Shown here: one piece after another, positions 1 to 11,296 of the stretch
How the letters are laid out: each line of letters starts with the position of its first letter
Numbering within the stretch: position 1 is the first letter of the stretch
Origin: Spirochaetia bacterium
Lineage (GTDB): Bacteria > Spirochaetota > Spirochaetia > Treponematales > Breznakiellaceae
Assembly: GCA_025997755.1 (NCBI GenBank)
Contig: BNVA01000047.1
Coordinates: forward strand, 1 to 11,296
Direction of reading: 5' to 3'
Length of the DNA stretch: 11,296 nucleotides
The notes under the pieces: model-generated
Told to the model about the DNA's origin: nothing
The model's database searches: none
Seen by the model: the letters and a program-made list of their open reading frames with translations, nothing else
Position numbers and translations under genes: made by a program

Positions 1-118
1 AGTACGCTGTGTCGGTTGCTGTGGTTTGGCTCCTGTTATGACCGTAGGTGCAGAAACTTACGGAAAAATGACAAAGGATCAGCTCACCGGTATTTTTGAC
101 AAATACCGCAAGGGATAA
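1..118 (+). CDS. hydC: NADH-linked [FeFe] hydrogenase, NuoE-like 2Fe-2S subunit (C-terminal fragment)
   Basis: Reading from base 2, the frame gives 38 residues and stops at TAA 116-118; the rest lies off the left edge. The fragment opens with RCVGCCGLAPVM, the hallmark of the last two cysteine ligands (C-x3-C) of the thioredoxin-fold 2Fe-2S domain in NuoE, HndA and HydC proteins, with an additional cysteine inside the motif. It ends with the short helix usual for the family (KMTKDQLTGIFDKYRKG). In the HydABC family this small subunit is part of the electron-transfer assembly around HydB. It lies only 12 bases before the NuoF-like gene, which matches the known hydC-hydB-hydA order. The fragment is short, but motif and context agree. 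Confidence 0.88.
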   Translation, partial: VRCVGCCGLAPVMTVGAETYGKMTKDQLTGIFDKYRKG

Positions 119-119
119 A

Positions 120-125
120 AAGGAG
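120..125 (+). promoter_or_regulatory. Ribosome binding site of hydB
   Basis: AAGGAG lies just after the hydC stop codon and 5 bases before the ATG at 131. It is a strong Shine-Dalgarno match and supports that start. Confidence 0.8.
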
Positions 126-130
126 TATAT

Positions 131-2026
131 ATGTCAAAATTCACGAAGGATTCCCTCAATAAGCACAGGGAAGACCTAAAAAAGAATTGGAGAAAAACCC
201 CTTATACAGTGCTTGTTTGCGGTGGTACTGCCTGTCAGTCCAACAAAGGTGAAGAGATCTATCAAGATTTGATTTCCGAAGCAAAAAAACAGGGTGTTTC
301 CGACCAAGTTAAAATTGTAAAAACCGGATGTTTCGGCTTCTGCGAGAAGGGACCCATCGTAAAAGTAATCAAGGGACAGCATGTTTCTTTCTATGTCGAG
401 GTTAAACCGGAAGACACGGCGGAGATCATCTCCAGTCAGGTAAAGGGCGGCAAGGAAGTTGAACGCCTCTTGTACAAAGACCCATCGGGCAAATCCCAAA
501 AAGCGGGCGCCGGCGAAGGTAATATCGGTTTCTATCAGAAACAAATCCGCGTTGTACTTCGTAACTGCGGCGCAATCAACCCCGAAGACATTGATGAGTA
601 CATCGCCAACGACGGCTATGTAGCGCTCGAAAAATCACTATTCCAATGGAAATGTGAAGACATCATAAATGAGCTTAAAACCTCCGGTTTACGCGGAAGG
701 GGCGGCGCCGGCTTCCCGACATGGATGAAGTGGGACACCACAAGCAAGGTAAAGAGCGAAATCAAATATGTGGTCTGTAACGCCGACGAAGGCGACCCGG
801 GCGCATACATGGATCGTTCCACCATTGAAGGCGACCCCCACTCCGTTATCGAAGCTATGATAATCTGCGGCAAAGCAATAGGCGGAAATCAGGGTTATGT
901 TTATATACGCGCCGAGTATCCGCTTGCGGTACACCGCTTGGAAATAGCGTTAAAACAAGCCAAAGAAAACGGGCTTTTGGGCAAAGACATTTTGGGTTCA
1001 GGTTTTGATTTTGACATCGAAATCCGCTTGGGCGCGGGCGCGTTTGTCTGCGGCGAAGAAACAGCACTATTGCGCTCCCTCGAAGGTCAGCGCGGTATGC
1101 CGACACCAAAGCCGCCGTTCCCCGCTATCGCAGGTCTGTGGGCAAAACCGACTTGTATCAACAATGTCGAGACACTCGCCAACATTCCGGCAATCCTTGT
1201 ACAAGGCGGCGCGTGGTTTGCGTCGATGGGTACGCCCGATTCTAAAGGCACCAAAGTATTTGCTCTTACCGGTAAAGTTGAAAACTCAGGTCTTATCGAA
1301 GTTCCGATGGGTACCACACTCCGCGAAATCATCTTTGAAATCGGCGGCGGTATCAAGAACGGTAAAAAATTCAAAGGCGTTCAGACAGGCGGTCCGTCCG
1401 GCGGAATCCTTACCGAGAAAGACCTAGATACACCGATTGACTACGCGGGACTCGCAAAAATGGGTTCTATGATGGGTTCAGGCGGTATGATCGTTATGGA
1501 CGAAGACGACTGTATGGTTGACGTAGCGCGCTTCTACATGGACTTCTGCGTTGACGAAAGCTGCGGAAAGTGTTCACCCTGCCGTATCGGCACCTCCCAA
1601 ATCCTCGCGATCCTCAACAAAATAGCAGAAGGCAAAGGCGACGAAGCCGACCTTATCAAACTGGAAACCATCGGCAAGGCTATGCAGAAAGCATCGTTGT
1701 GCGCATTAGGACAAACCGCGCCTAACCCGACACTTTCCTCTATCAAGAGCTTCCGCGACGAGTACATGGAGCATATCCGCGACAAAAAATGCCGCGCGAG
1801 CAAGTGTAAGAAACTCGCTATCTTTGAAATTCTCGAAGAACCGTGTATCGGCTGCGGCAAATGCTCCAAAGCTTGTCCCGCTGATGCTATTACACCCAAA
1901 GAGGACTGGACGGCTCCGGCAGACGGCAAGAAGAAAAAGCCGCCTATGGTTATCGATCAGTCCAAGTGTATCAAGTGCGGCGAGTGCTTCAGCAATTGTA
2001 AGTTTGAAGCCGTGGTCAAAAAATAA
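131..2026 (+). CDS. hydB: NADH-dependent [FeFe] hydrogenase, NuoF-like flavoprotein subunit (HydB/HndC type)
   Basis: The soluble NAD(H)- and FMN-binding subunit of a HydABC-type hydrogenase, which passes electrons between NAD(H) and the catalytic subunit. The 631 residues hold, in order: a thioredoxin-like 2Fe-2S domain with ligands Cys30, Cys35, Cys67 and Cys71 (C-x4-C ... C-x3-C), a domain that is a separate protein, HndB, in some operons; the NuoF core with the glycine-rich NADH site GLRGRGGAGFP (187-196), the FMN-site segment CNADEGDPGAY (216-226) and GAGAFVCGEETAL (301-313); a 4Fe-4S site C478-x2-C481-x2-C484 plus Cys524; and a C-terminal ferredoxin domain with two C-x2-C-x2-C-x3-C motifs (572-582 and 613-623). 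Length and order fit HydB of bifurcating enzymes. Cys461, His548, Cys554 and Cys559 may form the zinc site described in HydB structures; this is inferred from position. The ATG at 131 has a strong ribosome binding site, and the gene is followed after 11 bases by hydA. Confidence 0.95.
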   Translation: MSKFTKDSLNKHREDLKKNWRKTPYTVLVCGGTACQSNKGEEIYQDLISEAKKQGVSDQVKIVKTGCFGFCEKGPIVKVIKGQHVSFYVEVKPEDTAEIISSQVKGGKEVERLLYKDPSGKSQKAGAGEGNIGFYQKQIRVVLRNCGAINPEDIDEYIANDGYVALEKSLFQWKCEDIINELKTSGLRGRGGAGFPTWMKWDTTSKVKSEIKYVVCNADEGDPGAYMDRSTIEGDPHSVIEAMIICGKAIGGNQGYVYIRAEYPLAVHRLEIALKQAKENGLLGKDILGSGFDFDIEIRLGAGAFVCGEETALLRSLEGQRGMPTPKPPFPAIAGLWAKPTCINNVETLANIPAILVQGGAWFASMGTPDSKGTKVFALTGKVENSGLIEVPMGTTLREIIFEIGGGIKNGKKFKGVQTGGPSGGILTEKDLDTPIDYAGLAKMGSMMGSGGMIVMDEDDCMVDVARFYMDFCVDESCGKCSPCRIGTSQILAILNKIAEGKGDEADLIKLETIGKAMQKASLCALGQTAPNPTLSSIKSFRDEYMEHIRDKKCRASKCKKLAIFEILEEPCIGCGKCSKACPADAITPKEDWTAPADGKKKKPPMVIDQSKCIKCGECFSNCKFEAVVKK

Positions 2027-2030
2027 GGAG
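2025..2030 (+). promoter_or_regulatory. Ribosome binding site deciding the hydA start
   Basis: AAGGAG overlaps the hydB stop codon (TAA 2024-2026) and stands 7 bases before ATG 2038. A TTG at 2032 is in frame but only one base from the motif, too close for use, so the ATG at 2038 is preferred. Confidence 0.8.
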
Positions 2031-2037
2031 ATTGAAT

Positions 2038-3792
2038 ATGGTAGACATAAAAATTAACGGTACCCCCATTCAAGTTGAAGAAGGGACGACCATTGTAAAC
2101 GCGGCAAAGAAGGTCAATATCAAAATACCGACACTTTGCTACAACCCCGATCTGCCGCCATGGGCGTCCTGCGGACTTTGTATCGTTAGGACAATGGGTC
2201 CCGGCTCGCCCCGTATGGCGCGCGCTTGTACCACTGCGGTAGCGCCCGGCATGGACATAATTACCCATGATGCGGAGTTGATCGCCGTCCGTAAGTCGGT
2301 TTTGGAGTTGATTCTTTCCAATCACCCCGCCGATTGTTTGCAGTGCCCGCGTAACGGCTCCTGCGAACTCCAGACTCTTGCCGCCGAATTCGGTATACGT
2401 GAACACCCGTTCGCCAAGATTCCCAACAAACTCAAGATTGACGACTCTAGTCCGTCAATCATCATTGACCCGTCAAAGTGCATACGCTGCGGACGCTGCG
2501 TCAAAGTGTGCCAGCAGGTGCAGAATGTATGGGCAATCGAATTCTTGGGACGCGGTATCAATAGCCGCATAGCGAGCGCGGCAGACGTTCCGTTAGGCGA
2601 AAGCCCCTGTATCAAATGCGGTCAATGCGCGGCTCACTGCCCCGTAGGCGCTATATACGAGCGGGACGAAACCAGCCAGGTTTGGGATGCCCTTAACAAT
2701 CCTGAACTTACCTGCGCGGTGCAATTTGCACCGGCTGTCCGTGTAGCTTTGGCTGAAGAATTCGGGCTTGAACCCGGCAAGATTTTTACAAAGAAAATCT
2801 ACGCCGCTTTACGCAAACTCGGCTTTAATGCTATTTTTGATACAAACTTCTCCGCCGACCTTACCATCATGGAAGAAGGCAGCGAGCTTGTAAAACGCCT
2901 TACCGAAAAATCAAAAGACATTCCTCTTATAACATCTTGCTGCCCTGCATGGGTAGATTACATGGAGAAATACTATTCGGACTTTATCCCGAACTTCTCC
3001 ACAGCAAAATCCCCGCAGCAGATGTTGGGAGCCATGATAAAAGGTTACTGGGCACAGAAAGCCGGTAAGGACCCCGACAAAGTTTACTCGGTTTCGATAA
3101 TGCCCTGCACAGCGAAGAAATGGGAAGCGCACCGCGACGACCACATGAAGAGCGCCGGACACGGCTGGGATGTTGACATAGCTATCACAACTCGTGAGCT
3201 TGCCCGCATGATAAAACAAGCCGGTATAAACATTACGCAGCTTCCTGACGAAGAAGCGGACAGCCCGCTTGGACCCTACACCGGAGCAGGTACCCTGTTC
3301 GGAGCAACAGGCGGCGTTATGGAAGCGGCTGTACGCAGCGCATACTTCCTTGTTACCAAAAAAGAGCTTGGCGATGTAAACTTTAAACCTGTCCGTGGTC
3401 TTGAAGGCATAAAAGAAGCCGAAGTCGATCTTGCCGGTACAAAGATAAAACTCTGCGTCGCTCACCAGATGGGTAACATTGAGGCGGTACTCAACAAGAT
3501 TCGTGAATGCCGCAAGGAAGGCAAACCTTCTCCGTGGCAGTTTATCGAAGTAATGGCTTGCCGCGGCGGTTGTGTCGCAGGCGGCGGACAGCCCTACGGA
3601 GCTACCGACGAAATACGCAAAACCCGCGCCGCCGGTCTCTACAAGGACGACGAACAGTCCAAGATCCGCTGCTCTCACCAAAACCCGCTTATCACGCAGG
3701 TTTACAGCGAGTTCTTAAAATCCCCGGGAAGTGAAATAGCTCACAAGCTGCTCCACACCCACTACCACGAGCTTCCGTTATATTCAAAATAA
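2038..3792 (+). CDS. hydA: [FeFe] hydrogenase catalytic subunit (HydA/HndD type)
   Basis: Catalyses reversible 2H+ + 2e- = H2 at an H-cluster. Counting from the ATG at 2038 (584 residues): a plant-ferredoxin-like 2Fe-2S domain (Cys34, 45, 48, 64), the His-Cys3 4Fe-4S site (His96, Cys100, 103, 109), a two-cluster ferredoxin domain (Cys148, 151, 154, 158 and Cys191, 194, 197, 201), then the H-cluster domain. All three signature loops are present: L1 TSCCPAW (299-305), L2 MPCTAKKWE (355-363) and L3 EVMACRGGCVAGGGQP (504-519). The expected cluster ligands are Cys302, 357, 508 and 512, and the proton-relay cysteine is Cys301. L3 has Arg where many enzymes have Pro (MACPGGC). The small C-terminal domain is present, but the extra C-terminal 2Fe-2S domain of Thermotoga HydA is not. 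There is no signal peptide, so it is cytoplasmic. With the NuoF- and NuoE-like partners it fits the trimeric NAD-linked class; bifurcation is inferred and not visible in sequence alone. Confidence 0.96.
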   Translation: MVDIKINGTPIQVEEGTTIVNAAKKVNIKIPTLCYNPDLPPWASCGLCIVRTMGPGSPRMARACTTAVAPGMDIITHDAELIAVRKSVLELILSNHPADCLQCPRNGSCELQTLAAEFGIREHPFAKIPNKLKIDDSSPSIIIDPSKCIRCGRCVKVCQQVQNVWAIEFLGRGINSRIASAADVPLGESPCIKCGQCAAHCPVGAIYERDETSQVWDALNNPELTCAVQFAPAVRVALAEEFGLEPGKIFTKKIYAALRKLGFNAIFDTNFSADLTIMEEGSELVKRLTEKSKDIPLITSCCPAWVDYMEKYYSDFIPNFSTAKSPQQMLGAMIKGYWAQKAGKDPDKVYSVSIMPCTAKKWEAHRDDHMKSAGHGWDVDIAITTRELARMIKQAGINITQLPDEEADSPLGPYTGAGTLFGATGGVMEAAVRSAYFLVTKKELGDVNFKPVRGLEGIKEAEVDLAGTKIKLCVAHQMGNIEAVLNKIRECRKEGKPSPWQFIEVMACRGGCVAGGGQPYGATDEIRKTRAAGLYKDDEQSKIRCSHQNPLITQVYSEFLKSPGSEIAHKLLHTHYHELPLYSK

Positions 3793-3880
3793 CCGGCTCT
3801 TAGTTTAGTCAGATAGCCTGATCGCATAACAAGCGGTCAGGCTTTTTTTTCGTGCGGGGACTTAGAGACTGGCGGCGGGT
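3793..3880. other. Convergent intergenic region
   Basis: An 88-base gap between the stop of hydA (plus strand) and the stop of the TolB-like gene (minus strand). It holds the hydA terminator. I see no promoter, small reading frame or second terminator for the opposing transcript. Confidence 0.7.
3815..3850 (+). terminator. Rho-independent terminator of the hyd operon
   Basis: An 11-base-pair stem (3815-3825 with 3833-3843, one G-T type mismatch) with a 7-base loop is followed by a run of eight T (3843-3850). It lies 22 bases past the hydA stop codon. On the opposite strand the hairpin is not followed by a T run, so it should mainly stop hyd transcription. Confidence 0.88.
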
Positions 3881-4861
3881 TTATTTTTTTGATAGCCGCT
3901 TTTTTGCACGCTCTTTTTCTGATACCTTCTCCCCGCTCAGTTCCCGTGCGAGAAACTCCATAGCGATTATACCATCGTTCATATTGGCATACTGTTCGCT
4001 TCCTGCTTTGATTTGGATATTTTCCTCAAGTTTTATGATAGATGCATTAAAACGGGTAGTTGAGCCTATCTTTCGGGAAATAACAGAAAGCACATAGTCC
4101 GGATTCACCGCCTTCCCTGCTTTAACCGCCTCGTTGGCACGTGTAACCCCGCCCTTTAATTGGGTTTCGTATTCGCGTTGCACTTGTTCAATGGTCTGCG
4201 TCCTGGGGTAAACCGCATACGCACCACCACGCAACAGGTAGATCGCCAAAAGCTGCGCCAGGGCATCCCCTTCATGCTTGTTTGCACCATTAGGAAAATC
4301 AACCGGAAGTAGCGCAAGCTTGTCTAAGTCATCACTCATTTTTCGCACCATATCTACAAGTTTACCCGCCATGGTGTTCAGAATAGCCTCGTTTTTATTG
4401 AGTGCATCTAATGTGTCGTACAATAGGAAGTCGCCCGCCACCTGCCGGATAACATCTATTTTTATAATGGAGACTATAAGAAGATTCTGTTTGCCCAAAG
4501 ATGTGATACTCCCGGACATCACGTAGTTCGCGCCGAACTGATTTCCCAGTTTTGCTATTGTGTCTGCGTTGGTCATGCCGGATAAAGCCTGAAAAGATTG
4601 TTCCTGTCCAACCGCTTTGGTTATACTCGTGCGGGGTATCACCCCAAAACTTTTCATCATCTCCCGTGTATAAGAAAACAGTTCTGCGATACCCTCTTGT
4701 TCATCCGGACTTCCACCTGAAAACGGCAGTATGGCTATTGTCCCCAGACGTCCTCCATTCTGGGCGTAAGTTCCCGTTGAAAATGCCATGAGCAATAGTC
4801 CCATAAATACTGCCCGTAATAATACAAGTGCTCGTCTTGTAAAGACTTTTTTATTTTCCAT
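3881..4861 (-). CDS. Exported protein with two tandem TolB-N/CsgG-like modules
   Basis: A protein of 326 residues with a signal peptide: positive N-region (KK, RR within the first 10), hydrophobic stretch about 11-27, and a likely cut after TYA33. No lipobox cysteine is visible, so it is probably free in the periplasm. The mature part looks like two copies of one fold. The first (about 40-170) runs from GTIAILPFSGG through IPRTSITKAV to GANYVMSGSITSLGKQNLLIVSIIKID. The second (about 180-308) runs from KLALLPVDF through VYPRTQTIEQV to NPDYVLSVISRK ... FNASIIKLEENIQ. The pattern 'beta-strand LPF, helix, strand, YV(M/L)SGSI, long strand' is that of TolB N-terminal, CsgG and LpoB-like domains, which act in envelope assembly. 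The last part (270-322) closely matches the barrel protein encoded just upstream. The start ATG overlaps the upstream stop by one base and has AGGAG six bases before it. The exact function is unknown. Confidence 0.82.
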   Translation of the reverse strand: MENKKVFTRRALVLLRAVFMGLLLMAFSTGTYAQNGGRLGTIAILPFSGGSPDEQEGIAELFSYTREMMKSFGVIPRTSITKAVGQEQSFQALSGMTNADTIAKLGNQFGANYVMSGSITSLGKQNLLIVSIIKIDVIRQVAGDFLLYDTLDALNKNEAILNTMAGKLVDMVRKMSDDLDKLALLPVDFPNGANKHEGDALAQLLAIYLLRGGAYAVYPRTQTIEQVQREYETQLKGGVTRANEAVKAGKAVNPDYVLSVISRKIGSTTRFNASIIKLEENIQIKAGSEQYANMNDGIIAMEFLARELSGEKVSEKERAKKRLSKK

Positions 4862-5703
4862 CAGTTACTCCTGCGGAAGGGCAGATAAAAGCCTAGAGCA
4901 AAGGTCAATATATTGCTACCCTGTTTGTAGTCATATTTTGCGTCGTCAACGGTAAAAGTACCGTTACTTAGGTAGCCATTCCACTGGTACCCTATGGAAA
5001 GATTAACTATCCCCAAAAAAGCTCCTAATTCACCTCCGGCAATAAAATTCATTATGGCAGGATCAACCGACTTGGCGTCCGATGTTGTTGTGGAAACGTT
5101 CATACCTACCCCGGCATACCCTGATAACTGAATACCGACCACATGTGAACTCGGTGGTCGGAAATTGACACGGGCAATAATCGGTATCTGTACGGAATTC
5201 AGTTCCACATATTGTTTTGTTCCATCTGGCGGCGTATAAGATGCAAAATACTTGAACCCGCTTATTCCGGTTTGGATGCCGAAGTAATGGCTCATGCGCA
5301 GTTCGATGTGTCCGCCTCCTGCAACGCCTCCATTATTTGAGGTTGTTTCCTTGCCGGTATCTTTATCTATATAGGTGCTTTTGGGACCATCATCAAAGAT
5401 AGGTCCTATCCAACCGCCAAAGGCAATGCCGGAATTCTTTAAAAATTTATCCGTTGCCTCTATCCGCTTTATTGCATTTATTCTGTCGGCTTCCGCCTTC
5501 TCTGAAGCTAGTGTATCTTTATTCATTATGCTCCCCACTATGCTCGAACGTTTGGCACGTTCCGCTTCTGATATTTCCTCACCGCTCAGTTCCCGTGCAA
5601 GAAGTTCCATTGCTAAAATACCATCGCTCATATTAGCATACATCTCGCTTCCCGCAGTTTTTTGTATATTTCCTTCAAGCTCTATTATGGAAGCGTTAAA
5701 ACG
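4861..5703 (-). CDS. Outer-membrane beta-barrel protein with a TolB-like module (5'-truncated by the fold-back)
   Basis: Only the last 280 residues can be trusted; the true 5' part is missing because the sequence folds back at 5701. What remains: residues 1-52, the end of a TolB-like module very similar to residues 270-321 of the downstream protein (FNASII-LE-NIQ ... YANM-DGI-AME-LARELSGE); a charged, probably helical linker (about 53-92) rich in Lys, Glu and Ala; and a barrel (about 93-280) of alternating strands, with GGWIGPIF, HIELRMSHYFGIQTGISGF, VQIPIIARVNF, SGYAGVGMNV, GGELGAFLGIVNLSIGYQW and a final aromatic strand LTFALGFYLPF. This resembles small outer-membrane porin-like beta-barrel domains (OMP_b-brl type). 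The intact protein probably had a signal peptide and one or two TolB-like modules before the barrel, by analogy with its neighbour. Any reading that continues upstream to 5922 is an artefact, since it translates the gene's own antisense. Confidence 0.8.
   Translation of the reverse strand, partial: RFNASIIELEGNIQKTAGSEMYANMSDGILAMELLARELSGEEISEAERAKRSSIVGSIMNKDTLASEKAEADRINAIKRIEATDKFLKNSGIAFGGWIGPIFDDGPKSTYIDKDTGKETTSNNGGVAGGGHIELRMSHYFGIQTGISGFKYFASYTPPDGTKQYVELNSVQIPIIARVNFRPPSSHVVGIQLSGYAGVGMNVSTTTSDAKSVDPAIMNFIAGGELGAFLGIVNLSIGYQWNGYLSNGTFTVDDAKYDYKQGSNILTFALGFYLPFRRSN
4868..4872 (-). promoter_or_regulatory. Ribosome binding site within the end of the barrel gene
   Basis: On the minus strand AGGAG lies inside the last codons of the barrel gene, six bases before the ATG of the TolB-like gene (ATG at 4861-4859). 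The stop TGA and start ATG share one base (TGATG), which suggests translational coupling. Confidence 0.75.
5597..5700. other. Non-repeated 104-base centre (loop) of the fold-back
   Basis: These are the only bases not present in both arms. Read on the minus strand they continue the beta-barrel gene in frame, encoding the end of its TolB-like module (FNASIIELEGNIQ ... MELLA), which closely matches the C-terminal module of the neighbouring protein. On the plus strand the same bases give only a meaningless antisense translation. The loop is flanked by CCCGT/ACGGG inverted pentamers: 5592-5596 reads CCCGT and 5701-5705 reads ACGGG on the plus strand. The paralogous gene has the same pentamer pair with the same 104-base spacing (7241-7245 and 7350-7354) but no fold-back there. 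Confidence 0.93.
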
Positions 5704-6436
5704 GGAACTGAGCGGTGAGGAAATATCAGAAGCGGAACGTGCCAAACGTTCGAGCATAGTGGGGAGCATAATGAATAAAGATACACTAGCTTCAGAGAAG
5801 GCGGAAGCCGACAGAATAAATGCAATAAAGCGGATAGAGGCAACGGATAAATTTTTAAAGAATTCCGGCATTGCCTTTGGCGGTTGGATAGGACCTATCT
5901 TTGATGATGGTCCCAAAAGCACCTATATAGATAAAGATACCGGCAAGGAAACAACCTCAAATAATGGAGGCGTTGCAGGAGGCGGACACATCGAACTGCG
6001 CATGAGCCATTACTTCGGCATCCAAACCGGAATAAGCGGGTTCAAGTATTTTGCATCTTATACGCCGCCAGATGGAACAAAACAATATGTGGAACTGAAT
6101 TCCGTACAGATACCGATTATTGCCCGTGTCAATTTCCGACCACCGAGTTCACATGTGGTCGGTATTCAGTTATCAGGGTATGCCGGGGTAGGTATGAACG
6201 TTTCCACAACAACATCGGACGCCAAGTCGGTTGATCCTGCCATAATGAATTTTATTGCCGGAGGTGAATTAGGAGCTTTTTTGGGGATAGTTAATCTTTC
6301 CATAGGGTACCAGTGGAATGGCTACCTAAGTAACGGTACTTTTACCGTTGACGACGCAAAATATGACTACAAACAGGGTAGCAATATATTGACCTTTGCT
6401 CTAGGCTTTTATCTGCCCTTCCGCAGGAGTAACTGA
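5702..6436 (+). CDS. Mirror copy of the beta-barrel gene (truncated further)
   Basis: The same coding sequence as 5595-4861 on the minus strand, beginning at the codons for RELSGEE and ending with TGA at 6434-6436. It lacks the loop-encoded module end, because here the loop is read in antisense. The longer open frame that starts at 5375 is a chimera: its N-terminal part is the antisense of this gene's own barrel and loop, and has no biological support. It should be treated as a duplicate reading and not a second gene. Confidence 0.75.
   Translation, partial: RELSGEEISEAERAKRSSIVGSIMNKDTLASEKAEADRINAIKRIEATDKFLKNSGIAFGGWIGPIFDDGPKSTYIDKDTGKETTSNNGGVAGGGHIELRMSHYFGIQTGISGFKYFASYTPPDGTKQYVELNSVQIPIIARVNFRPPSSHVVGIQLSGYAGVGMNVSTTTSDAKSVDPAIMNFIAGGELGAFLGIVNLSIGYQWNGYLSNGTFTVDDAKYDYKQGSNILTFALGFYLPFRRSN
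6425..6429 (+). promoter_or_regulatory. Mirror copy of the coupled ribosome binding site
   Basis: AGGAG six bases before the ATG at 6436, inside the end of the barrel frame. It is identical to the site on the left arm. Confidence 0.7.
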
Positions 6437-7416
6437 TGGAAAATAAAAAAGTCTTTACAAGACGAGCACTTGTATTATTACGGGCAGTATTTATGGGACT
6501 ATTGCTCATGGCATTTTCAACGGGAACTTACGCCCAGAATGGAGGACGTCTGGGGACAATAGCCATACTGCCGTTTTCAGGTGGAAGTCCGGATGAACAA
6601 GAGGGTATCGCAGAACTGTTTTCTTATACACGGGAGATGATGAAAAGTTTTGGGGTGATACCCCGCACGAGTATAACCAAAGCGGTTGGACAGGAACAAT
6701 CTTTTCAGGCTTTATCCGGCATGACCAACGCAGACACAATAGCAAAACTGGGAAATCAGTTCGGCGCGAACTACGTGATGTCCGGGAGTATCACATCTTT
6801 GGGCAAACAGAATCTTCTTATAGTCTCCATTATAAAAATAGATGTTATCCGGCAGGTGGCGGGCGACTTCCTATTGTACGACACATTAGATGCACTCAAT
6901 AAAAACGAGGCTATTCTGAACACCATGGCGGGTAAACTTGTAGATATGGTGCGAAAAATGAGTGATGACTTAGACAAGCTTGCGCTACTTCCGGTTGATT
7001 TTCCTAATGGTGCAAACAAGCATGAAGGGGATGCCCTGGCGCAGCTTTTGGCGATCTACCTGTTGCGTGGTGGTGCGTATGCGGTTTACCCCAGGACGCA
7101 GACCATTGAACAAGTGCAACGCGAATACGAAACCCAATTAAAGGGCGGGGTTACACGTGCCAACGAGGCGGTTAAAGCAGGGAAGGCGGTGAATCCGGAC
7201 TATGTGCTTTCTGTTATTTCCCGAAAGATAGGCTCAACTACCCGTTTTAATGCATCTATCATAAAACTTGAGGAAAATATCCAAATCAAAGCAGGAAGCG
7301 AACAGTATGCCAATATGAACGATGGTATAATCGCTATGGAGTTTCTCGCACGGGAACTGAGCGGGGAGAAGGTATCAGAAAAAGAGCGTGCAAAAAAGCG
7401 GCTATCAAAAAAATAA
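6436..7416 (+). CDS. Mirror copy of the tandem TolB-N/CsgG-like exported protein
   Basis: Identical in all 326 residues to the protein at 3881-4861 on the other strand: signal peptide to about residue 33, then two related modules. This copy shows the stop/start overlap clearly (TGA 6434-6436, ATG 6436-6438). It also carries the CCCGT and ACGGG pentamers at 7241-7245 and 7350-7354, 104 bases apart, matching those that flank the fold-back in the paralogous barrel gene. It is almost certainly the same locus read again. Confidence 0.8.
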   Translation: MENKKVFTRRALVLLRAVFMGLLLMAFSTGTYAQNGGRLGTIAILPFSGGSPDEQEGIAELFSYTREMMKSFGVIPRTSITKAVGQEQSFQALSGMTNADTIAKLGNQFGANYVMSGSITSLGKQNLLIVSIIKIDVIRQVAGDFLLYDTLDALNKNEAILNTMAGKLVDMVRKMSDDLDKLALLPVDFPNGANKHEGDALAQLLAIYLLRGGAYAVYPRTQTIEQVQREYETQLKGGVTRANEAVKAGKAVNPDYVLSVISRKIGSTTRFNASIIKLEENIQIKAGSEQYANMNDGIIAMEFLARELSGEKVSEKERAKKRLSKK

Positions 7417-7446
7417 ACCCGCCGCCAGTCTCTAAGTCCCCGCACG

Positions 7447-7482
7447 AAAAAAAAGCCTGACCGCTTGTTATGCGATCAGGCT
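7447..7482 (-). terminator. Mirror copy of the hyd operon terminator
   Basis: Same 11-base-pair hairpin and T run (A run on the plus strand, 7447-7454) as at 3815-3850, located after the mirrored hydA stop. Confidence 0.85.
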
Positions 7483-7504
7483 ATCTGACTAAACTAAGAG
7501 CCGG

Positions 7505-9259
7505 TTATTTTGAATATAACGGAAGCTCGTGGTAGTGGGTGTGGAGCAGCTTGTGAGCTATTTCACTTCCCGGGGATTTTAAGAACTCGCTGTAAACCTG
7601 CGTGATAAGCGGGTTTTGGTGAGAGCAGCGGATCTTGGACTGTTCGTCGTCCTTGTAGAGACCGGCGGCGCGGGTTTTGCGTATTTCGTCGGTAGCTCCG
7701 TAGGGCTGTCCGCCGCCTGCGACACAACCGCCGCGGCAAGCCATTACTTCGATAAACTGCCACGGAGAAGGTTTGCCTTCCTTGCGGCATTCACGAATCT
7801 TGTTGAGTACCGCCTCAATGTTACCCATCTGGTGAGCGACGCAGAGTTTTATCTTTGTACCGGCAAGATCGACTTCGGCTTCTTTTATGCCTTCAAGACC
7901 ACGGACAGGTTTAAAGTTTACATCGCCAAGCTCTTTTTTGGTAACAAGGAAGTATGCGCTGCGTACAGCCGCTTCCATAACGCCGCCTGTTGCTCCGAAC
8001 AGGGTACCTGCTCCGGTGTAGGGTCCAAGCGGGCTGTCCGCTTCTTCGTCAGGAAGCTGCGTAATGTTTATACCGGCTTGTTTTATCATGCGGGCAAGCT
8101 CACGAGTTGTGATAGCTATGTCAACATCCCAGCCGTGTCCGGCGCTCTTCATGTGGTCGTCGCGGTGCGCTTCCCATTTCTTCGCTGTGCAGGGCATTAT
8201 CGAAACCGAGTAAACTTTGTCGGGGTCCTTACCGGCTTTCTGTGCCCAGTAACCTTTTATCATGGCTCCCAACATCTGCTGCGGGGATTTTGCTGTGGAG
8301 AAGTTCGGGATAAAGTCCGAATAGTATTTCTCCATGTAATCTACCCATGCAGGGCAGCAAGATGTTATAAGAGGAATGTCTTTTGATTTTTCGGTAAGGC
8401 GTTTTACAAGCTCGCTGCCTTCTTCCATGATGGTAAGGTCGGCGGAGAAGTTTGTATCAAAAATAGCATTAAAGCCGAGTTTGCGTAAAGCGGCGTAGAT
8501 TTTCTTTGTAAAAATCTTGCCGGGTTCAAGCCCGAATTCTTCAGCCAAAGCTACACGGACAGCCGGTGCAAATTGCACCGCGCAGGTAAGTTCAGGATTG
8601 TTAAGGGCATCCCAAACCTGGCTGGTTTCGTCCCGCTCGTATATAGCGCCTACGGGGCAGTGAGCCGCGCATTGACCGCATTTGATACAGGGGCTTTCGC
8701 CTAACGGAACGTCTGCCGCGCTCGCTATGCGGCTATTGATACCGCGTCCCAAGAATTCGATTGCCCATACATTCTGCACCTGCTGGCACACTTTGACGCA
8801 GCGTCCGCAGCGTATGCACTTTGACGGGTCAATGATGATTGACGGACTAGAGTCGTCAATCTTGAGTTTGTTGGGAATCTTGGCGAACGGGTGTTCACGT
8901 ATACCGAATTCGGCGGCAAGAGTCTGGAGTTCGCAGGAGCCGTTACGCGGGCACTGCAAACAATCGGCGGGGTGATTGGAAAGAATCAACTCCAAAACCG
9001 ACTTACGGACGGCGATCAACTCCGCATCATGGGTAATTATGTCCATGCCGGGCGCTACCGCAGTGGTACAAGCGCGCGCCATACGGGGCGAGCCGGGACC
9101 CATTGTCCTAACGATACAAAGTCCGCAGGACGCCCATGGCGGCAGATCGGGGTTGTAGCAAAGTGTCGGTATTTTGATATTGACCTTCTTTGCCGCGTTT
9201 ACAATGGTCGTCCCTTCTTCAACTTGAATGGGGGTACCGTTAATTTTTATGTCTACCAT
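7505..9259 (-). CDS. hydA: Mirror copy of the [FeFe] hydrogenase catalytic subunit
   Basis: Identical translation to 2038-3792, with all accessory cluster ligands and the L1, L2 and L3 H-cluster motifs. The start is again the ATG preceded by AAGGAG (9267-9272); the in-frame TTG six bases upstream is too close to that motif. A complete identity at both coding and flanking bases argues for one gene read twice and against a recent gene duplication. Confidence 0.93.
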   Translation of the reverse strand: MVDIKINGTPIQVEEGTTIVNAAKKVNIKIPTLCYNPDLPPWASCGLCIVRTMGPGSPRMARACTTAVAPGMDIITHDAELIAVRKSVLELILSNHPADCLQCPRNGSCELQTLAAEFGIREHPFAKIPNKLKIDDSSPSIIIDPSKCIRCGRCVKVCQQVQNVWAIEFLGRGINSRIASAADVPLGESPCIKCGQCAAHCPVGAIYERDETSQVWDALNNPELTCAVQFAPAVRVALAEEFGLEPGKIFTKKIYAALRKLGFNAIFDTNFSADLTIMEEGSELVKRLTEKSKDIPLITSCCPAWVDYMEKYYSDFIPNFSTAKSPQQMLGAMIKGYWAQKAGKDPDKVYSVSIMPCTAKKWEAHRDDHMKSAGHGWDVDIAITTRELARMIKQAGINITQLPDEEADSPLGPYTGAGTLFGATGGVMEAAVRSAYFLVTKKELGDVNFKPVRGLEGIKEAEVDLAGTKIKLCVAHQMGNIEAVLNKIRECRKEGKPSPWQFIEVMACRGGCVAGGGQPYGATDEIRKTRAAGLYKDDEQSKIRCSHQNPLITQVYSEFLKSPGSEIAHKLLHTHYHELPLYSK

Positions 9260-9270
9260 ATTCAATCTCC

Positions 9271-11166
9271 TTATTTTTTGACCACGGCTTCAAACTTACA
9301 ATTGCTGAAGCACTCGCCGCACTTGATACACTTGGACTGATCGATAACCATAGGCGGCTTTTTCTTCTTGCCGTCTGCCGGAGCCGTCCAGTCCTCTTTG
9401 GGTGTAATAGCATCAGCGGGACAAGCTTTGGAGCATTTGCCGCAGCCGATACACGGTTCTTCGAGAATTTCAAAGATAGCGAGTTTCTTACACTTGCTCG
9501 CGCGGCATTTTTTGTCGCGGATATGCTCCATGTACTCGTCGCGGAAGCTCTTGATAGAGGAAAGTGTCGGGTTAGGCGCGGTTTGTCCTAATGCGCACAA
9601 CGATGCTTTCTGCATAGCCTTGCCGATGGTTTCCAGTTTGATAAGGTCGGCTTCGTCGCCTTTGCCTTCTGCTATTTTGTTGAGGATCGCGAGGATTTGG
9701 GAGGTGCCGATACGGCAGGGTGAACACTTTCCGCAGCTTTCGTCAACGCAGAAGTCCATGTAGAAGCGCGCTACGTCAACCATACAGTCGTCTTCGTCCA
9801 TAACGATCATACCGCCTGAACCCATCATAGAACCCATTTTTGCGAGTCCCGCGTAGTCAATCGGTGTATCTAGGTCTTTCTCGGTAAGGATTCCGCCGGA
9901 CGGACCGCCTGTCTGAACGCCTTTGAATTTTTTACCGTTCTTGATACCGCCGCCGATTTCAAAGATGATTTCGCGGAGTGTGGTACCCATCGGAACTTCG
10001 ATAAGACCTGAGTTTTCAACTTTACCGGTAAGAGCAAATACTTTGGTGCCTTTAGAATCGGGCGTACCCATCGACGCAAACCACGCGCCGCCTTGTACAA
10101 GGATTGCCGGAATGTTGGCGAGTGTCTCGACATTGTTGATACAAGTCGGTTTTGCCCACAGACCTGCGATAGCGGGGAACGGCGGCTTTGGTGTCGGCAT
10201 ACCGCGCTGACCTTCGAGGGAGCGCAATAGTGCTGTTTCTTCGCCGCAGACAAACGCGCCCGCGCCCAAGCGGATTTCGATGTCAAAATCAAAACCTGAA
10301 CCCAAAATGTCTTTGCCCAAAAGCCCGTTTTCTTTGGCTTGTTTTAACGCTATTTCCAAGCGGTGTACCGCAAGCGGATACTCGGCGCGTATATAAACAT
10401 AACCCTGATTTCCGCCTATTGCTTTGCCGCAGATTATCATAGCTTCGATAACGGAGTGGGGGTCGCCTTCAATGGTGGAACGATCCATGTATGCGCCCGG
10501 GTCGCCTTCGTCGGCGTTACAGACCACATATTTGATTTCGCTCTTTACCTTGCTTGTGGTGTCCCACTTCATCCATGTCGGGAAGCCGGCGCCGCCCCTT
10601 CCGCGTAAACCGGAGGTTTTAAGCTCATTTATGATGTCTTCACATTTCCATTGGAATAGTGATTTTTCGAGCGCTACATAGCCGTCGTTGGCGATGTACT
10701 CATCAATGTCTTCGGGGTTGATTGCGCCGCAGTTACGAAGTACAACGCGGATTTGTTTCTGATAGAAACCGATATTACCTTCGCCGGCGCCCGCTTTTTG
10801 GGATTTGCCCGATGGGTCTTTGTACAAGAGGCGTTCAACTTCCTTGCCGCCCTTTACCTGACTGGAGATGATCTCCGCCGTGTCTTCCGGTTTAACCTCG
10901 ACATAGAAAGAAACATGCTGTCCCTTGATTACTTTTACGATGGGTCCCTTCTCGCAGAAGCCGAAACATCCGGTTTTTACAATTTTAACTTGGTCGGAAA
11001 CACCCTGTTTTTTTGCTTCGGAAATCAAATCTTGATAGATCTCTTCACCTTTGTTGGACTGACAGGCAGTACCACCGCAAACAAGCACTGTATAAGGGGT
11101 TTTTCTCCAATTCTTTTTTAGGTCTTCCCTGTGCTTATTGAGGGAATCCTTCGTGAATTTTGACAT
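9271..11166 (-). CDS. hydB: Mirror copy of the NuoF-like hydrogenase subunit
   Basis: Identical in 631 residues to 131-2026: N-terminal 2Fe-2S domain, NADH/FMN core, 4Fe-4S site and C-terminal double ferredoxin domain. Its ribosome binding site AAGGAG is at 11172-11177 on the minus strand. It is not evidence for a second hyd operon. Confidence 0.93.
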   Translation of the reverse strand: MSKFTKDSLNKHREDLKKNWRKTPYTVLVCGGTACQSNKGEEIYQDLISEAKKQGVSDQVKIVKTGCFGFCEKGPIVKVIKGQHVSFYVEVKPEDTAEIISSQVKGGKEVERLLYKDPSGKSQKAGAGEGNIGFYQKQIRVVLRNCGAINPEDIDEYIANDGYVALEKSLFQWKCEDIINELKTSGLRGRGGAGFPTWMKWDTTSKVKSEIKYVVCNADEGDPGAYMDRSTIEGDPHSVIEAMIICGKAIGGNQGYVYIRAEYPLAVHRLEIALKQAKENGLLGKDILGSGFDFDIEIRLGAGAFVCGEETALLRSLEGQRGMPTPKPPFPAIAGLWAKPTCINNVETLANIPAILVQGGAWFASMGTPDSKGTKVFALTGKVENSGLIEVPMGTTLREIIFEIGGGIKNGKKFKGVQTGGPSGGILTEKDLDTPIDYAGLAKMGSMMGSGGMIVMDEDDCMVDVARFYMDFCVDESCGKCSPCRIGTSQILAILNKIAEGKGDEADLIKLETIGKAMQKASLCALGQTAPNPTLSSIKSFRDEYMEHIRDKKCRASKCKKLAIFEILEEPCIGCGKCSKACPADAITPKEDWTAPADGKKKKPPMVIDQSKCIKCGECFSNCKFEAVVKK

Positions 11167-11178
11167 ATATACTCCTTT

Positions 11179-11296
11179 TTATCCCTTGCGGTATTTGTCA
11201 AAAATACCGGTGAGCTGATCCTTTGTCATTTTTCCGTAAGTTTCTGCACCTACGGTCATAACAGGAGCCAAACCACAGCAACCGACACAGCGTACT
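11179..11296 (-). CDS. hydC: Mirror copy of the NuoE-like subunit tail
   Basis: The same 38-residue C-terminal fragment with the RCVGCCGLAP cysteine motif, cut at the right edge at exactly the base where the left copy is cut at the left edge. Confidence 0.86.
   Translation of the reverse strand, partial: VRCVGCCGLAPVMTVGAETYGKMTKDQLTGIFDKYRKG

Follow-up and report, generated by a model that had tools for sequence, protein, structure and literature searches.

A mirror-image contig bearing the end of a spirochaete [FeFe]-hydrogenase operon is most likely a fold-back chimera

Does a contig that reads as its own mirror image record a feature of a bacterial genome, or the way in which its DNA was copied and assembled? 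The question is raised by a stretch of 11,296 bases of spirochaete DNA (the window), which carries part of a hydrogenase operon in two opposing copies. It had been described as a palindrome of 2 x 5,596 bases around a 104-base centre, and exact self-comparison bears this out: the arms at 1-5596 and 5701-11296 are 100% reverse-complementary with zero mismatches, and the 74 mismatching positions of the comparison all lie inside the centre at 5597-5700. A perfect inverted repeat of 5,596 bases is far beyond chance. One of the window's own proteins, P0001, is listed on a single contig of 11,296 bases, so we treated the window as an entire contig that ends where the arms end. The arms do co-terminate, as the original prediction held, and this co-termination is that of a whole contig, mirrored exactly, which stops at the same base within hydC on either side (Table 1). 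Its second segment is an inverted copy of a nearby first segment, 104 bases away, the arrangement expected of a fold-back chimera. The further claim that every gene recurs in mirror orientation holds insofar as the arms are identical; the gene at the centre is cut, so not every gene recurs whole.

We are highly confident that the window is an artefact, a fold-back (hairpin) chimera of one ordinary spirochaete segment of 5.7 kb. The mirror image is thus most likely not a feature of a living genome.

Table 1. Coordinates of the features of the window, with their mirror copies.
Feature	Positions	Strand	Mirror copy	Basis or remark
Left arm, taken to be the natural segment in single copy	1-5596	+		100% complementary to 5701-11296
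hydC, truncated by the contig end: final 38 codons and stop (3' end)	2-118	+	11179-11295, minus	
hydB, NuoF-like subunit	131-2026	+	9271-11166, minus	
hydA, [FeFe] hydrogenase group A6	2032-3792	+	7505-9265, minus	NF040763
LpoB-like protein, 326 aa, without barrel, paralogue of the cut gene	3881-4861	-	6436-7416, plus	PF13036
Barrel part (C-terminal) of the gene that the fold-back interrupts	4861-5703	-		Resembles the uninterrupted frames of L083 and L084
Chimeric ORF of 353 aa spanning the centre	5375-6436	+	4861-5922, minus	Pre-junction part is the barrel gene in antisense
CCCGT, putative annealing site of the folded-back 3' end	5592-5596	+		Paralogue and two relatives
Unpaired single-copy loop within the coding sequence of the barrel gene (minus strand)	5597-5700			Translation aligns with homologues
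ACGGG, putative 3' primer end	5701-5705	+		Paralogue and two relatives
Right arm, the mirror copy, read as an artefactual fold-back	5701-11296	-		No k-mer beyond those of the left arm, loop and junction

Read once, the locus itself is ordinary: it is the end of an NADH-dependent [FeFe]-hydrogenase operon beside two LpoB-like or barrel genes. HydA scores 789.5 bits against NF040763 (cut-off 765), the hydC remnant is 92% identical over 38 aa to HydC of locus L003, and positions 1-3769 are collinear with L003, L004 and L005 at 77-79% DNA identity. We kept 80 of the 228 HydA relatives found; among these 80, records of Spirochaetaceae and Treponema lead, with a top identity of 90%. Many isolates behind such records come from termite guts, and the source of the window is probably a Treponema-like spirochaete of an insect gut. 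Because hydC lies upstream of hydB in all six relatives whose contigs reach far enough (seven were inspected), both outer ends of the palindrome fall inside hydC, which is not a natural unit boundary.

A plasmid origin was considered and rejected. Plasmid records matched in 45 cases, none of them covering more than 80% of the query in one place, and the best 20 of the 45 matches all lie within 522-3337, in the hydB-hydA part. The window contains no tRNA, and no Rfam family was found in it at gathering scores.

The inner ends of the arms also fall within a gene. When 195 genomes of the family of G001 were searched with the 326-aa LpoB-like protein (PF13036 at 42.3 bits), 132 gave a match. At the two best loci, L083 (545 codons) and L084 (547 codons), an LpoB-like N-part is joined to the same barrel as in the window in one uninterrupted frame that runs from stop to stop. 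Over 318 columns the 326-aa protein shares 69% identity with the L083 N-part, and from the junction onward the barrel part of the window is 44% identical to L083 and 41% to L084. The 353-aa ORF across the centre matches these two frames from residue 73 only, two codons ahead of the junction, where Ser stands against Thr and Arg is then held in common. Its other pieces match them at E of 4 or more, and its pre-junction stretch is encoded by the mirror arm.

Protein homologues from outside the window give the same picture. Five of seven homologues of the barrel fragment continue upstream through the junction as a normal protein, with Arg-Phe at the junction position (P0002, P0004, P0005, P0006 and P0008); P0003 and P0007 begin downstream of it and are uninformative. 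Judged from these frames, the inner arm end is not a biological boundary, and the gene that it interrupts is continuous in the two closest relatives, L083 and L084. One check proposed for the artefact was to find a related assembly with a barrel gene that runs on normally, and these two loci supply it as predicted; the continuity is that of natural genomes of relatives, not of the same strain. Elsewhere, the barrel fragment turned up no relative among the 48 pattern matches of a first scan of genome contigs, and a search of ten relative genomes yielded two weak hits (E about 5e-4); in viral contigs the pattern matched in three stretches, none of them a relative.

The bases at the junction suggest how a strand could have turned back on itself. 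The match between the window and its in-window paralogue holds through 5701-5705 (TTAAAACGGG) and then breaks: the paralogue reads ACGGGTAGTTGAGCC and the window ACGGGAACTGAGCGG. At the same junction position L083 and L084, which are 41-44% identical to the window in the barrel part, read GCGGGTACC. The six bases concerned are ACGGGT in the paralogue, GCGGGT in L083 and L084, and ACGGGA in the window. Since the paralogue and both relatives have CGGGT where the window has CGGGA, the natural strand probably ended in ACGGG, and its continuation was probably ACGGGT, diverging from the window at 5706. At 5592-5596, the point at which the mirror copy turns, stands CCCGT, whose reverse complement is ACGGG. 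The paralogue and the two relatives, which are of other strains, suggest a possible inverted complementarity of 4-5 bases at the junction.

These features are consistent with a course of events that we infer in several of its elements, namely the bases beyond 5705, the priming event, its laboratory origin and the order of the steps. The source would have been a segment running from the end of hydC through hydB and hydA into two LpoB-like or barrel genes on the opposite strand. A 3' end that halted at ACGGG, at about base 5705, may have paired with CCCGT at 5592-5596, leaving a loop of 104 bases. Amplification or library preparation would be the stage at which the annealed end was extended, with its own strand or a sister strand as template, and the assembler would then have linked the arm with its reverse complement via the loop, walking the arm twice. 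We also considered a structured loop and rejected it: for 5592-5705, a stretch chosen to include the 5-base stem, the best fold shows the stem, and 44 of 200 shuffles fold equally well (z -0.62). Recombination between the two paralogues was likewise set aside, as they lie in direct orientation and cannot yield such an inversion.

A turn-round of this kind could, in principle, mark the covalently closed hairpin end of a linear replicon, read through at its telomere. Borrelia is the spirochaete example of such ends, reading through a closed hairpin yields a palindrome, and the relatives of the window are spirochaetes too. However, a closed hairpin telomere has a near-zero loop, whereas the window turns round over 104 unpaired coding bases and does so inside a barrel gene that continues in relatives; the stretch 5592-5705 folds no better than shuffles. 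The coding loop and the mid-gene turn-round each argue against a Borrelia-like end, which we reject and to which we give practically no credence. No telomere resolvase was found among the four window proteins scanned.

The perfect identity of the arms and their shared ends had been offered as arguments for an artefact, and both prove weaker than stated. At k = 31, 61, 99 and 121 alike, the whole window resolves into 5,700 k-mers and two unitigs, which correspond to the arm and the loop. A single arm to which one 500-base fold-back fragment is added matches it both in k-mer number and in unitigs. An assembler passing through the loop would spell the arm twice with identical ends, and a single-copy arm walked twice is automatically free of divergence and co-terminal. 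Since the k-mer graph is the same either way, neither property speaks for a second arm. A whole-contig palindrome is expected to give a graph of one arm unitig and a loop, as would a real duplication; in short-read data, the k-mer graph does not distinguish the artefact from a real duplication. Adding the natural continuation to the graph, with random bases as a stand-in, created a competing branch, which means that fold-back molecules must have been locally more abundant than natural ones. Such dominance can easily arise in amplified or thin data, and an abundant real rearrangement would give the same.

The graph therefore leaves room for a real and very recent inverted duplication in vivo, in which template switching at the 5-base inverted repeat would have copied a segment of the [FeFe]-hydrogenase operon. 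In living cells, short inverted repeats can seed palindromic duplications, and, if the arms exceeded the read length, assembly would stop at the arm ends. The duplicated form would also have to outnumber the normal locus in the sample. Such an event would, however, cut the barrel gene and place its outer ends within hydC, and bacteria would not be expected to maintain a 5.6 kb palindrome with a loop of 104 bases stably. No comparable repeat occurs in 102 relative loci, examined as clipped pieces: BLAST detected an inverted repeat of at least 150 bases in three of them, with identities of at most 80.4% among the pieces listed. Overall, we consider a real duplication very unlikely.

The length of the junction bears on another explanation, in which there were no chimeric molecules and the assembler relied on overlap alone to connect the arm with its reverse complement. 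A pure assembly error of this kind would leave graph and contig ends unchanged. However, the probable natural overlap of 4-5 bases is far below usual k-mer or overlap lengths, and with so few bases reads carrying the junction must have existed; we regard such an error as extremely unlikely. An assembly path walked forwards and back, one of the possibilities raised originally, is for this reason unlikely to be the whole story. The fold-back artefact favoured in the original prediction gains support from the mid-gene centre, the outer ends cut within hydC and the 4-5 bases of probable complementarity at the junction.

Fold-back chimeras of this form have published counterparts. In the passages of PMC1855051 on single-cell MDA chimeras, 406 of 475 were inverted, 337 of these 406 linked segments less than 10 kb apart, and for inverted segments within that distance complementary bases lay at the junction in 93.5%. 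The window resembles them in its inverted second segment, its spacing of less than 10 kb and, probably, a short junction complementarity, which reaches up to 21 bases in those passages compared with a probable 4-5 here (PMC1855051). It differs in that its sample is known from sequence alone. The same passages favour priming on neighbouring displaced strands and argue against hairpin self-priming and template switching as the principal routes in MDA. In view of that argument, either its own strand or a sister strand may have served as template for the window. The relevant part of PMC4060946 attributes only a portion of wrongly oriented reads to the displaced-3'-end mechanism.

Whole-contig palindromes have likewise been described. 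Passages in PMC9455707 report 81 of them in Mycobacterium bovis assemblies, removed as probable assembly errors, and those in PMC12755884 report them in single-cell cyanobacterial genomes as very likely artefacts. As in the window, the entire contig is one exact palindrome with its genes in mirror copies; those passages come without junction anatomy, whereas the junction of the window can be read base by base. The account of Pacasus in PMC6218980 gives palindromic reads as 43.6% and 47.8% of two amplified PacBio sets, compared to 0.5% in a control. There, too, a strand copied back on itself produces a mirror-image fragment, although these are single error-rich long reads and the arms of the window are identical.

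The biological weight of the window is slight, and its use is as a warning on mirror contigs, which double gene counts and produce false fusion ORFs. P0001 (249 aa, 5687-6436 on the plus strand) is a protein-collection entry that begins in the apparently artefactual centre; its cluster holds two member sequences from one contig. A fold-back contig can nonetheless be suspected from its bases by themselves, through a mid-gene centre, a single-copy loop, a short inverted complementarity and a graph of two unitigs.

In these spirochaetes the LpoB-like N-part, of about 310 aa, is shared by a large family of paralogues, in which it is fused to very different C-parts (loci L081-L102). Pfam, applied to 10 of the 22 loci, assigned a barrel to the C-part of L091, a beta-helix to that of L093 and a Listeria-Bacteroides repeat to that of L086, and nothing to the others. 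Among the genomes listed, nine have nine or more matches, with at most 11 candidates scored per genome. In the fetched flanks of the 80 HydA loci, tblastn found no LpoB-like or barrel gene near hydA at E 1e-3, nor was a relative collinear with 3793-5596 found in these loci; the placement of such genes beside hydA is either peculiar to this lineage or shared by relatives beyond the fetched flanks. In the window, the start of the 326-aa gene overlaps the stop of the preceding barrel-bearing gene by one base. The barrel-less copy may perhaps have arisen by tandem duplication, its barrel part having been lost or never present.
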